Part shown: positions 6,158-17,290 of the stretch, piece after piece
Numbering within the stretch: position 1 is the stretch's first letter
Layout of the letters: each line of letters begins with the position of its first letter
Source: Polyangiaceae bacterium
GTDB lineage: Bacteria > Myxococcota_A > Polyangia > Polyangiales > Polyangiaceae
Reading direction: 5' to 3'
Length of the DNA: 58,572 nucleotides
Assembly (NCBI GenBank): GCA_025937835.1
Contig: JAICQO010000034.1
Span: 1-58,572, forward strand
Position numbers and translations under genes: made by a program
Notes under the pieces: model-generated
Told to the model about the DNA's origin: nothing
What the model saw: the letters and a program-made list of their open reading frames with translations, nothing else
Databases searched by the model: none

Positions 6158-7231
6158 TCAGGTCAGGCGTTGGATCACGGCGAGCGCGGCGGCTTCGGTG
6201 TCGAGAGCGCCGCCCACGTCGCGAGTGCACTCGCCGGCCGCGAGAGCGTCGGCGCATGCGCGTTCGATCTCGGTGTGCACAGTGGGGTGCCCGAGGAAGT
6301 CGAGCAGCATGCCCGCGCTCCGAAGCATTGCCAGGGGGTTGGCGATGCCGCGGCCGGCGAGTGCTGGCGCGCTGCCGTGGACCGGCTCGAACAAGCCGGG
6401 CACGCGCGCCCCGGGGTTCAGGCTCGCGCTCGGGCACAAGCCGAGCCCGCCCGCGAGCGCCGCGCACAGGTCGGAGACGATGTCGCCGAACAGGTTGGTC
6501 GTCACGATCACCGAGAAGCGAGCCGGGTCGCGAACGAGCTCGTGGCAGAGCGCGTCGATGTACAGGTGCTCTGCGCGTACATCCTCGTAATCACGACGGA
6601 TTTCGGCGAACGCGCGCTGCCACAGGTCGTGTCCGTGGCGGAGCGCATTCGACTTGTCCGCGAGGCACAGCGGGCGGCGCTCGCGGCGCGCGTAGTCGAA
6701 CGCCGCGCGCAGGATCCGCTCCACTCCGTGGCGCGTGTTCACGTCTTCTTCGATCGCGATCTCGAACGGCGTGTCCCGGCGGAGCTGGCCGCCGATCCCG
6801 GAGTACGCGCCCTCGGTGCCCTCGCGGAAGACCACGAAGTCGATGTCGCGGTGACCCCTGCCTGCGAGCGGCACGACGCGATCCACGAGCGCGCGAGCAG
6901 GTCGGATCTGCGCGTACAGATCGAAGCCCGTGCGAAAGCCGAACAAGATCCGGCGCGCGTGCTCGTGGTCGGGGATGCGCGGATCGCCCAGCGCGCCGAG
7001 CAGAATCGCCGAAGCCGTGTCGCGGATCTCGGCCTGTAGCTCGGCGGGGAGCGCCGTTTTGTCGCGCAGGTAGCGCTCGGCGCCGAGCTCGAGCGACCAC
7101 AAATCCAGCGGAACTCCTCGGCGATCGCGCGCCCATTCGAGCAGCCGCCGGCCCTCGCGCAGCACCTCGGGGCCGATGCCGTCGCCCCCGATCAGGGCAA
7201 TGCGATGAGGCGGAGTGCGCGCCTCGGTCAC
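6158..7231 (-). CDS. Isocitrate/isopropylmalate/tartrate dehydrogenase family protein
   Basis: 357 aa beta-decarboxylating NAD(P)-dependent dehydrogenase. Visible signatures are the N-terminal RIALIGGDGIGPEV, the substrate-binding arginines in LFGFRTGFDLYAQIRPAR, TEGAYSGIGGQ, the catalytic lysine in ADKSNALRH, the metal-binding Asp pair in NLFGDIVSD, and the cofactor loop FEPVHGSAP. The motif order fits 3-isopropylmalate dehydrogenase, but the substrate helix and PSASLNPG are closer to the tartrate/D-malate branch, so LeuB function is uncertain. The GTG start overlaps the stop of the upstream PATAN gene by 4 bp (GTGA), indicating translational coupling to a regulatory operon, an odd context for a leucine enzyme. 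Confidence 0.88.
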   Translation of the reverse strand: MTEARTPPHRIALIGGDGIGPEVLREGRRLLEWARDRRGVPLDLWSLELGAERYLRDKTALPAELQAEIRDTASAILLGALGDPRIPDHEHARRILFGFRTGFDLYAQIRPARALVDRVVPLAGRGHRDIDFVVFREGTEGAYSGIGGQLRRDTPFEIAIEEDVNTRHGVERILRAAFDYARRERRPLCLADKSNALRHGHDLWQRAFAEIRRDYEDVRAEHLYIDALCHELVRDPARFSVIVTTNLFGDIVSDLCAALAGGLGLCPSASLNPGARVPGLFEPVHGSAPALAGRGIANPLAMLRSAGMLLDFLGHPTVHTEIERACADALAAGECTRDVGGALDTEAAALAVIQRLT

Positions 7232-15060: not shown

Positions 15061-15130
15061 AACCAATAAAGTCAGTGAGGTTTTAATATCGTGGAAAGAC
15101 ATTGAATTGATTGATGAATTTGCTTTTCGT
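15061..15130. other. AT-rich island (31 % GC)
   Basis: Counting bases gives 22 G or C of 70 in a neighbourhood near 70 % GC. It includes runs such as TTTTAATATC and ATTGAATTGATTGATGAATT and ends exactly where the first parS begins. It could hold a promoter for tetR or bioF, be a protein-bound low-GC spacer, or be easily unwound DNA. Confidence 0.6.
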
Positions 15131-15143
15131 TTCACGTGAAACA
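15128..15143. other. parS centromere-like site 1 (intergenic)
   Basis: CGTTTCACGTGAAACA matches 15 of 16 bases of the classical parS consensus TGTTTCACGTGAAACA, including the entire 14-bp palindrome core GTTTCACGTGAAAC. ParB binds such sites, spreads on the flanking DNA and loads SMC, placing the locus in the origin-proximal chromosome domain. No parA, parB, dnaA or gyrB gene is in the window. Confidence 0.85.
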
Positions 15144-15162
15144 AGGTCGTGGACGATTTCGC

Positions 15163-15325
15163 CGCAAAGGCGCAAAGGAGCGCAAAGACTCGCAAGTCTT
15201 TTGGGGGTCGAGCTGGCGGGCAGCGCGCGTCGTGGGGATGCATTTCGGAGCCACTTCAATGCAACGGCTCGTCCCTCCCAGTCGTCTGCAGGCGCCACCC
15301 GAGAAAGCCCCTTGCGGTCTTTGCG
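15163..15325. repeat. GCAAAG-type direct and inverted repeat element
   Basis: Left side: CGCAAAGG at 15163-15170 and 15171-15178, CGCAAAG at 15181-15187 and CGCAAG at 15191-15196, so units recur every 8-10 bp. Right side: CTTGCGGTCTTTGCG at 15311-15325, the reverse complement of the left CGCAAAGACTCGCAAG with one base missing. The two arms could pair as a 15-16-bp stem with about 114 bp between them. Related GCAAAGGCGCAAAG motifs occur between genes in many unrelated bacteria, from memory and not checked. No coding function is visible. Confidence 0.6.
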
Positions 15326-15435
15326 TCCCAGGCTCAGTGCCTTCGCTCGACCGACCCCGGTCCACGAATCGTCGTGCCCGGCCGGGAAGTTTCTTGCCGC
15401 GGTCGGTCCTTCGTTCCAAACCCGTCCACCAGCCG

Positions 15436-16578
15436 ATGCTCGACGCCTACCTCCAGTGGCAACTCGACGCCCTCAAGTCGCGGAGCCTCTACCGGGACCC
15501 GGACGACGCCTTCGCTCGTAGAGAGGTGGCGGCTGCGGCTGACGCCCAGGGCGACCGGTTCATCGATGCTTCGTCGAACGACTACCTGGGCCTCGCGGGC
15601 GCGTCCGTTTCACGTGAAACAGGGGCCGCGGGCGCTGGGGCGTCGCGACTAGTCCAGGGGACGCGGGCCGAGCACGTGGCCCTCGAAGCCGAGCTCGCGA
15701 GCTGGGTGGGGCTCTCCTCGGCGCTGCTCTTTACCAGCGCCTACGCCGCGAACGTTGGAACCATGAGCGCGCTCGGCGGCGACGACGCCGTGATGATCTC
15801 CGACGAGCTCAACCACGCCTCCATCATCGATGGCTGTCGCCTGGCGCGTGCCCAGGTGCTGGTGACGCCGCACCTCGACCTGGCTGCGATCGACAGCGCG
15901 CTGAGCGCGGCCCGCTCCACGCCCTTGCGCTGGGTGATCACCGAGTCGTACTTCAGCATGGACGGGGACGGCCCGAACCTCACGGCACTTCGCGCCCTGT
16001 GCGATCGCCACCGCGCCTTCCTGGTCGTGGACGAGGCGCACGGCCTGGGCGTGTTCGGGGCAGGCGGCGCCGGACGTTGCGCAGAGCTCGGCGTTCGCCC
16101 CGACGTACTGATCGGCGGGCTCGGCAAGGCCGTCGGATCGCAAGGTGGGTTCGTGGCGGGCTCCGCAGCGCTCCGGGCGTTCCTCTGGAACCGCGCCCGC
16201 ACCTTCGTGTTCTCGACCGCGCCCTCACCCTCGCTCTGCCGAGAGGCGCGCGCGCAGGTCGCCGCGGCCCGCGCCGCCGACCCCGCCCGCGAGCGACTGC
16301 ACGCGAACGTCGCCGCCTTCCGCGGGGCATTGAGCGAGCTCGGGGTTACGGTTGGCGAAGGCTCGTTCGGTCCGATCGTGCCGGTCTGGATCGGCGATGG
16401 CCAGCGGGCGCTCGAGGCCGCGCAGCGGCTCCGAGCGCGCGGGGTGCTCGCGCAGCCGATCCGCCCGCCCTCGGTGCCGCCGGGGACGGCGCGCTTGCGG
16501 CTGACCGTCACGGCCGAGCTCGAGCTCGACGACGTGAAGCGGCTCGCCGAGCGGGTCGCCGAAGCCACGCTCACGTGA
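15436..16578 (+). CDS. bioF: 8-amino-7-oxononanoate synthase BioF
   Basis: 380 aa, PLP-dependent alpha-oxoamine synthase that condenses pimeloyl thioester with alanine in biotin synthesis. Motifs: SNDYLGLAG near residue 45, GASRLVQGT, the substrate His in DELNHASIIDG, VVDEAHGLGVFG, and the PLP lysine in GGLGKAVGSQGG. The ATG at 15436 begins the conserved region; the frame upstream has no homology. The region between SNDYLGLA and GAGASRLV is about nine residues shorter than I expect for the family. Precisely there the DNA carries a parS site translated as VSRET. bioD follows 28 bp downstream, so the two form a biotin operon; bioA and bioB are not here. Confidence 0.94.
   Translation: MLDAYLQWQLDALKSRSLYRDPDDAFARREVAAAADAQGDRFIDASSNDYLGLAGASVSRETGAAGAGASRLVQGTRAEHVALEAELASWVGLSSALLFTSAYAANVGTMSALGGDDAVMISDELNHASIIDGCRLARAQVLVTPHLDLAAIDSALSAARSTPLRWVITESYFSMDGDGPNLTALRALCDRHRAFLVVDEAHGLGVFGAGGAGRCAELGVRPDVLIGGLGKAVGSQGGFVAGSAALRAFLWNRARTFVFSTAPSPSLCREARAQVAAARAADPARERLHANVAAFRGALSELGVTVGEGSFGPIVPVWIGDGQRALEAAQRLRARGVLAQPIRPPSVPPGTARLRLTVTAELELDDVKRLAERVAEATLT
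15606..15621. other. parS centromere-like site 2 (inside bioF)
   Basis: The same 16 bases as site 1, CGTTTCACGTGAAACA, 478 bp further on and in the same register. It lies inside bioF and is translated as Val-Ser-Arg-Glu-Thr. A chance match of a 14-bp perfect palindrome twice within 500 bp is very unlikely. Finding two identical copies strongly supports real ParB binding sites. Confidence 0.85.
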
Positions 16579-16606: not shown

Positions 16607-17290
16607 ATGCGCCGGATCGTGATCCTCGGAACCGGAACCGGGGTCGGCAAGACCCACGTGAGCGTTGCGCTCGGCCGCGCGCTTTCGGCTCGCTCGGCGG
16701 CGACGGGTTCGCCGCGCCGCTTTGCCTTGTTGAAGCCGATCGAAAGTGGGTTCAGCCCGGACGCGCCCAGCGACGCGTCCCGGCTGGCAGCAGAAAGTCA
16801 AGCAATTTCGCTACCTTCGCAGCATCCACGCTATGCGCTGGCAGAGCCAATCTCGCCGCACTTGGCGGCGCGCCGGGCGGGGATTTGCATCGACATTCCG
16901 AGCCTTCAGTCCTGGCTCGCTGAGTGGGAGCGGGAGCAGCAGGCCGATGCCGGAGACCTCGCGGTGATCGAGACCGCCGGCGGAGTCTTCACTCCTCTGA
17001 GTGAGACGAGCACGAACTTCGACCTGGCTCGCGCGCTCGAACCGGCGCGTTGGGTGCTGGTGGCGCCCGATGCGCTCGGCGTGCTGCACGAGCTCACCGC
17101 GACGCTGACGGCGCTCGCGGCGCGCGGGCGCTCCCCCGACTTCGTCGCGCTGTCGGCTGCGCGCGAACCGGACGCGAGCACGGGCAGCAACGCCGCCGAG
17201 CTGCGCCGCCTCGGGATCGCGGATCCCGCCGCGGTGCTCGGCCGCGACGCAAACGACCTCGCTCGGTTACTCGAGCGACTGCTCGCGTGA
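16607..17290 (+). CDS. bioD: Dethiobiotin synthetase BioD
   Basis: 227 aa. The P-loop GTGTGVGKTHVS begins at residue 8 and is the BioD form of Walker A. The catalytic lysine region is FALLKPIESG, and the gamma-phosphate/carbamate region is VIETAGGVFTPLSE. The enzyme closes the ureido ring of dethiobiotin from 7,8-diaminopelargonate, CO2 and ATP. It directly follows bioF on the same strand. A loop (KQ-type insertions around residues 70-80) is slightly unusual, but nothing essential is missing. Confidence 0.93.
   Translation: MRRIVILGTGTGVGKTHVSVALGRALSARSAATGSPRRFALLKPIESGFSPDAPSDASRLAAESQAISLPSQHPRYALAEPISPHLAARRAGICIDIPSLQSWLAEWEREQQADAGDLAVIETAGGVFTPLSETSTNFDLARALEPARWVLVAPDALGVLHELTATLTALAARGRSPDFVALSAAREPDASTGSNAAELRRLGIADPAAVLGRDANDLARLLERLLA

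Follow-up and report, generated by a model that had tools for sequence, protein, structure and literature searches.

A putative parS centromere site within the bioF gene of a Polyangiaceae bacterium and the recurrence of parS at bioF across its order

Introduction

ParB loads at parS as a clamp, slides along DNA and recruits ParA and SMC. Why, then, should a parS-like palindrome be found inside the coding sequence of a biotin-synthesis enzyme? The question is raised by a 58,572-nucleotide stretch of DNA from a Polyangiaceae bacterium (the window), in which one copy of the palindrome lies upstream of a bioF-like gene and a second is translated as part of the enzyme. We analysed this locus together with bioF loci from the same family, its order and more distant relatives, and asked whether the site is conserved as DNA, whether its arrival is tied to a shortened enzyme loop, and what its position may mean for the chromosome.

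Materials and methods

The order that contains the window's family (Polyangiaceae, f1), which we take to be Polyangiales, was represented by 183 genomes, each searched with the window BioF protein and with the parS core. A BioF-type match was found in 181, and 143 genomes were analysed, yielding 144 bioF loci (92 from Polyangiaceae). Partial matches (G159, G111 and G079) were skipped, and lower-scoring matches, likely paralogues or fragments, were left out. Seven extra loci were taken around parS alone, one of which (L231) held a BioF and was counted while six had none. Twenty class- and phylum-level outgroup loci were picked among the best matches listed from 377 genomes, at least 71 of which were already in the order set, giving 164 aligned loci in total (144 from the order and 20 outgroup). 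Flanks were 1.5 kb for L004-L033 and at most 3 kb for the rest, shortened where a contig ended; loci L034-L113 served for first looks at loops and for structure alignments, outside the counts. Loop length was the interval from SNDYL to GAGASRL in all 164 aligned loci, and loop sites were chosen at no more than one mismatch to the core. Eleven chromosomes of the order are complete or near-complete (1-2 contigs): G070, G130, G144, G145, G146, G148, G163, G164, G165, G180 and G181.

Results

Two parS-like sites at a bioF-like gene

The features of the window that bear on the question are as follows.

15128..15143, no strand assigned: upstream parS, CGTTTCACGTGAAACA, about 290 bases 5' of the bioF start codon
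15436..16578, plus strand: bioF-like gene, 8-amino-7-oxononanoate synthase (AONS) family, 380 aa (open frame, NCBIfam match and fold)
15589..15630, plus strand: shortened variable loop, 14 aa (GLAGASVSRETGAA), bounded by SNDYL and GAGASRL (164-locus alignment and model pLDDT)
15606..15621, no strand assigned: parS inside the bioF gene, CGTTTCACGTGAAACA, translated as VSRET
16607..17290, plus strand: bioD-like gene (dethiobiotin synthase), next gene 3' of bioF (TIGR00347, 79.3 bits, just below the cut-off of 83.3)

Both copies of CGTTTCACGTGAAACA match the 16-bp consensus parS TGTTTCACGTGAAACA at 15 of 16 positions (one mismatch each), and shuffles of the window gave an expectation of 0.02 matches at up to three mismatches. 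The exact 14-bp core is present in only two copies in the 6.92-Mb assembly, at 15128-15143 and 15606-15621, both at bioF. Codons 58-62 of bioF, GTT TCA CGT GAA ACA (15607-15621), encode VSRET; the first-pass annotation had placed this translated parS between SNDYL and GAGASRL, and this was confirmed. The genome has one parB above the family cut-off, on another contig (C171:9355-9879, 171 bits), adjoined by a ParA-like frame (L299 10056-10829; named by eye). The GTG within the upstream parS opens a stop-free frame of 480 aa into bioF (15136-16578), which may be coincidence, though related genera have a parS GTG at the start of bioF.

The best NCBIfam match of 15436-16578 was TIGR00858 BioF at 352 bits. 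Since this misses the curated cut-off of 426, which is a naming threshold, we term the protein BioF-like; the shortened loop may have cost part of the score. K231, which we take to be the PLP lysine, is invariant in 42 of 42 sequences in the alignment. Foldseek matched the predicted structure best to AONS entries (alpha-oxoamine synthase fold), and the nearest solved structures were AONS and related enzymes, with TM-scores normalised to the query of 0.82-0.86 for 1bs0, 1dje and 7s5m. The likeness to the BioF enzymes of E. coli (1BS0/1DJE) and M. smegmatis (7S5M/3WY7) lies in the fold, the conserved lysine and, here, the bioD-like neighbour. Unlike in those structures, the helix after NDYL is replaced in the window protein by a short VSRET loop that is disordered in the model, and the alignment to 7S5M leaves a seven-residue gap in the window protein at the loop.

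Modelled with AlphaFold2 (mean pLDDT 92.3), the window protein lacks any helix between residues 38 and 70, a span that includes the loop (52-65), and its sole run of pLDDT below 50 covers residues 57-66. A control model of a relative with a loop of usual length (L112) has a helix in that interval, at residues 25-38. The helix is thus probably gone in the modelled window enzyme, with the VSRET peptide a probable surface passenger. The earlier suggestion that part of this helix had been lost agrees with the two models; its linkage of the shortening to parS does not stand, as set out below.

A loop probably short before parS

Twenty-four of the 92 Polyangiaceae loci, from 23 genomes and 13 genus codes, carry parS in the loop (25 sites), and 68 do not. 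A median loop of 21 residues was measured for 49 loci from the remaining families of the order, f5 excluded (range 12-22), and likewise for the 20 loci from outside the order (range 16-22). The 14-residue window loop is shorter than this by seven, rather than by the nine or so first estimated. In Polyangiaceae, the median is 13.5 without loop parS (n = 68) and 18.5 with it (n = 24). This difference was significant by the Mann-Whitney test (p = 3e-8) and vanished once five residues were subtracted from the parS-bearing loops (p = 0.28), both tests ignoring kinship; a kinship-controlled pair test had three supported pairs and hence no power. The gap matches the length of VSRET itself, five residues, and parS therefore looks to have been added to a loop that was already short.

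Alternatively, centromere function drove the deletion of the BioF helix, so that shortening and parS arose together. The window loop is indeed the joint shortest (14 aa) of the 24 that bear parS, and all of these belong to a short-looped family. However, among the 68 Polyangiaceae loci without loop parS, the loop does not exceed 14 residues in 36. In 20 of the 92, the fetched locus holds no exact or one-mismatch parS at all, and their loops span 13-20 residues (six of them at most 14). The three f5 loops, 11-12 residues long (median 12), also lack parS, as do a few short loops (down to 12) in other families. Conversely, parS-bearing loops run longer, up to 39 and 86 aa, and parS-free loops hold no remnant of the core. 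Short loops thus exist without parS and parS-bearing ones are longer, which does not support a coupling of the two, and we consider such a coupled origin improbable. The first-pass annotation had held that the loop shortened with or because of parS, and had proposed to check whether the deletion is confined to lineages with the site; on the contrary, short loops without parS occur in close relatives (Polyangiaceae and f5), and the 68 Polyangiaceae loci without the site are shorter still. On comparing the lengths, it seems most likely that a loop already short and permissive existed first and that parS was gained afterwards.

In the 164-row tree, Polyangiaceae and f5, plus one f15 row, form one clade (support 98), and the loop state changes at least six times. 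A tree of Polyangiaceae and f5 places eleven loop-parS rows, including the window, in one clade (93/96), with a poorly supported Polyangiaceae backbone. One gain with losses and several gains are both possible; the shared offset of the site, with VSRET beginning at loop residue 7 in 18 of 25 sites, favours few gains.

Two of the loop-parS genomes have further peculiarities. In G161, locus L137 contains a tandem array at 6177-6914 (units of about 145 bp, 5.1 copies, 78% matches), about 2 kb upstream of bioF. Each of its five units carries a parS with 0-1 core mismatches, and the bioF loop, of 86 residues, contains two in-frame VSRET parS. Judged by its repeat structure, the array might be a satellite-like bacterial centromere. 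G137 has two bioF copies on separate contigs (L008 and L115), both with loop parS, which reflects either duplication or contamination.

parS stays at bioF across the order

The exact parS core was found in 123 of the 183 genomes of the order (271 sites). Of the 112 genomes that have an exact parS and whose bioF locus was fetched, 93 have an exact site at bioF, 78 of them having all of theirs there, and 19 have none at the fetched locus; 195 of the 257 exact sites in these genomes fall within the bioF locus. Of the 31 genomes without the exact core, 21 still show a site with one mismatch at bioF. Elsewhere in the order, outside Polyangiaceae, an exact or one-mismatch parS lies no more than 700 nt upstream of NDYL in 36 of 52 loci, and in the loop of none. 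Outside the order, a site is present in the locus for 6 of 14 loci from the same class (two exact) and for none of six elsewhere in the phylum.

Within Polyangiaceae, 25 loci besides those with loop sites have a parS 109-160 nt before NDYL, three of them with one mismatch. All but one of these upstream sites (24 of 25) are read in the frame TTT CAC GTG, which would let bioF start at the GTG of CACGTG. An ATG or GTG three codons earlier could serve instead in 12 of these loci; in L193 a stop codon immediately precedes TTT CAC GTG, and a Shine-Dalgarno-like motif precedes the GTG in 9 of the 25. We infer that the GTG within parS is the actual start of bioF. At the other end of the gene, the bioF stop codon of L141 and L201 is the TGA inside the parS palindrome, and eight more Polyangiaceae loci have parS 13-16 nt after the stop. 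Read from these sequences, the three frames of the palindrome serve as interior, stop and, putatively, start of bioF among Polyangiaceae loci.

In four genomes without an exact parS core (G157, G158, G159 and G082; loci L291, L292, L293 and L276), we observed 2-5 mutually close copies of GTTTCACGGGAAAC, flanked as TGTTTCACGGGAAACA in the contexts listed; this element is a candidate for a parS whose sequence has switched away from bioF. Single copies of GTTTCACGGGAAAC lie beside a leuS-like gene in L003, L275, L281, L282, L284, L287 and L288. The leuS-like gene, named by eye, is common to 13 of 24 GTTTCACGGGAAAC loci, and the copies overlap or adjoin another conserved frame. A DnaA-box-like sequence follows GTTTCACGGGAAAC within a few bases, TTATTCACA in L275 and CTATCCACA in L281, L282, L284, L287 and L288; no DnaA box was found in L003, and none in L003 or L255 even at one mismatch. 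The GTTTCACGGGAAAC element is also a candidate marker of a replication origin.

Sole sites and chromosomal position

Besides the window's genome, 22 genomes carry parS in the loop. The loop holds the only exact core of the assembly in nine of them (G071, G088, G092, G100, G116, G134, G135, G138 and G140), these being fragmented assemblies of 77-98% completeness. Five others (G077, G078, G084, G085 and G086) have no exact core; their loops carry GTTTCACGTGCAAC, and each assembly has a further 1-4 sites with one mismatch elsewhere. The remaining eight have additional exact sites, on the contig of the loop site or on others. Like these assemblies, that of the window is fragmented.

A loop parS is absent from all 11 complete chromosomes, in which every exact core lies within about 5 kb of bioF. 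From the parS at bioF, dnaA is 0.11-0.13 Mb away in family f12 and 0.72-1.48 Mb away in Polyangiaceae, and the ParB gene is about 4.4-7.4 Mb away in the 11 chromosomes, taken as circular. Usually, parS, parB and dnaA are grouped around the origin; these 11 chromosomes are unlike this. In the phylum outgroups G254 and G308, parS-like sites are found at about 0.07-0.23 Mb from dnaA, with bioF megabases off and parB also far. GC skew, computed for origin placement in G163 from 19 samples of 20 kb, was too flat to give a usable signal. For comparison, the parS competence zone of P. aeruginosa spans about 650 kb according to excerpts of PMC5098823. We also observed bioB about 6-10 kb from parB in three genomes (L299 on contig C171 of the window's genome, contig C5 of G140 and contig C1 of G084), versus at least 0.4 Mb in the complete chromosomes of other genera.

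The recurrent placement might point to a mainly regulatory role of parS at bioF, where bound ParB would repress or tune biotin synthesis. In many relatives parS overlaps the bioF start codon or lies immediately upstream of the gene, and in P. aeruginosa ParB represses promoters beside the intergenic parS3 and parS4, as stated in excerpts of PMC5521831. The same excerpts, however, report no such effect at native ParB level beside the intragenic parS1 and parS2. No single regulatory geometry fits sites that also fall in the loop, at the stop codon and downstream, and the 11 complete chromosomes have no exact parS other than those at or near bioF. We regard a mainly regulatory role as unlikely, and a regulatory side effect of parS on bioF, by analogy with P. 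aeruginosa, as possible.

The loop parS appears conserved as DNA

All 25 loop sites are read in one frame (VSRxT); 20 are exact, and five, from genera g12 and g16, share an identical A-to-C change (GTTTCACGTGCAAC, read VSRAT) and could be decaying. Across the 25 sites, 13 of the 14 core positions carry 2.0 bits of information and the remaining one 1.3, and the 18 bases on each side carry 0.0-1.2 bits. The invariant codons are uncommon in the rest of the same genes (as shares of all codons for the amino acid concerned, GTT 80/714, TCA 47/639, CGT 80/821 and GAA 129/452), giving a joint expectation of 2.3e-4 for GTT-TCA-CGT-GAA. Among the 140 loops without parS, the best match to the core had 6-9 mismatches in Polyangiaceae (n = 68) and 5-8 elsewhere (n = 72), about as in shuffled loops. 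Half-decayed sites were thus absent from the 164 loci, whose loops hold either the core with 0-1 mismatches or nothing nearer than chance. The one-mismatch cut-off used in choosing loop sites might itself have produced the conservation; this was rejected, the other 140 loops having five or more mismatches, much like shuffles. Together, the invariant uncommon codons, the variable flanks and the lack of intermediate matches make the loop site look conserved as DNA, and selection appears to act on the DNA of the loop parS.

Could VSRET instead be kept for the protein, for binding or stability, with the parS match a by-product? The rather constant position of the peptide, at residue 7 in most loops, would fit such a motif. 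Its codon choice, however, is invariant against the expectation given above, and the five variants change the peptide to VSRAT while the uncommon codons stay. The loop is predicted to be disordered, and at the gene ends of relatives the palindrome is read in two other frames. VSR occurs in none of the 140 parS-free loops, and VSRET encoded by other codons was absent from the loops of all 164 loci. A protein-level motif was rejected on codon use and on the absence of VSR from parS-free loops; we judge it very unlikely. A functionless palindrome arisen by chance in coding sequence deserves next to no credence and was rejected: although the parS assignment comes from sequence, the shuffles of the window, the two-only cores of its assembly and the 20 exact sites in the same loop of divergent BioFs speak against it.

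The idea that centromere function shaped a surface region of the enzyme therefore survives in part, in that a DNA-level constraint dictates five residues, and falls with respect to a coupled deletion of the loop.

Discussion

We conclude that the palindrome at 15606-15621 is probably a genuine chromosomal parS, kept by DNA-level selection inside bioF and gained in a loop that was already short. The site and its frame, its conservation, the pattern of loop lengths, the synteny and the parB gene were observed directly, whereas ParB binding, centromere function, BioF activity and the order of gain are inferred.

A plausible course of events would begin with parS sites that stay beside bioF throughout the order. 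In Polyangiaceae, BioF would first have lost the helix that follows NDYL and precedes the glycine-rich segment, so that a short disordered loop remained. parS would then have been gained in this loop, adding about five residues, in the single frame that gives a polar, stop-free peptide, VSRET. ParB would bind the loop parS, load there as a clamp, slide over the flanking genes and recruit ParA and SMC, and BioF would carry VSRET as a passenger, the site being tolerated because the loop is disordered. In other branches of Polyangiaceae, parS would have come to lie on either terminal codon of bioF, start or stop, or shortly beyond the gene.

There is precedent for a translated parS. In P. aeruginosa, nine of ten predicted parS most likely lie within coding sequences (excerpts of PMC4368675), and this is the likeness to the present case. 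Here, in contrast, one metabolic gene is used across many genera, the site falling in a hypervariable loop or on a start or stop codon, and nine of the 22 genomes searched have no exact parS in the assembly apart from the loop site. In M. xanthus, excerpts of PMC3899335 describe a ParABS system whose ParB binds 16-bp palindromes in vitro (consensus TGTTCCACGTGGAACG), and an origin-proximal cluster of 22 parS spanning about 3 kb, of which 12 had previously been mapped about 4.4 kb from parA. M. xanthus belongs to the same phylum and its parS is a 16-bp palindrome as here. Unlike that cluster, one or a few sites lie at bioF in the present order, megabases from parB in the 11 complete chromosomes. 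Limited literature searches, covering titles and the starts of abstracts, found no description of a tie between parS and bioF, of the use of three frames, or of a sole exact site within a gene.

For the larger picture we see an evenly balanced case. A multi-megabase chromosome may, in several myxobacterial genera, have its sole full-consensus centromere in a single parS within the coding sequence of bioF, and in related lineages the same palindrome may run through the gene in all three frames, as GTG start, VSRET loop and TGA stop. bioF would then be the long-term centromere home of the whole order, with parA and parB megabases away.

One stretch of DNA thus appears to serve chromosome segregation and protein coding at once, in a setting where many lineages can be compared. 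The enzyme loop may be viewed as a permissive dock for a DNA element, for which the order of events is testable. The finding also raises the question of why the centromere of this order stays tied to one metabolic gene, more than 1 Mb from dnaA in several chromosomes and far from parB.
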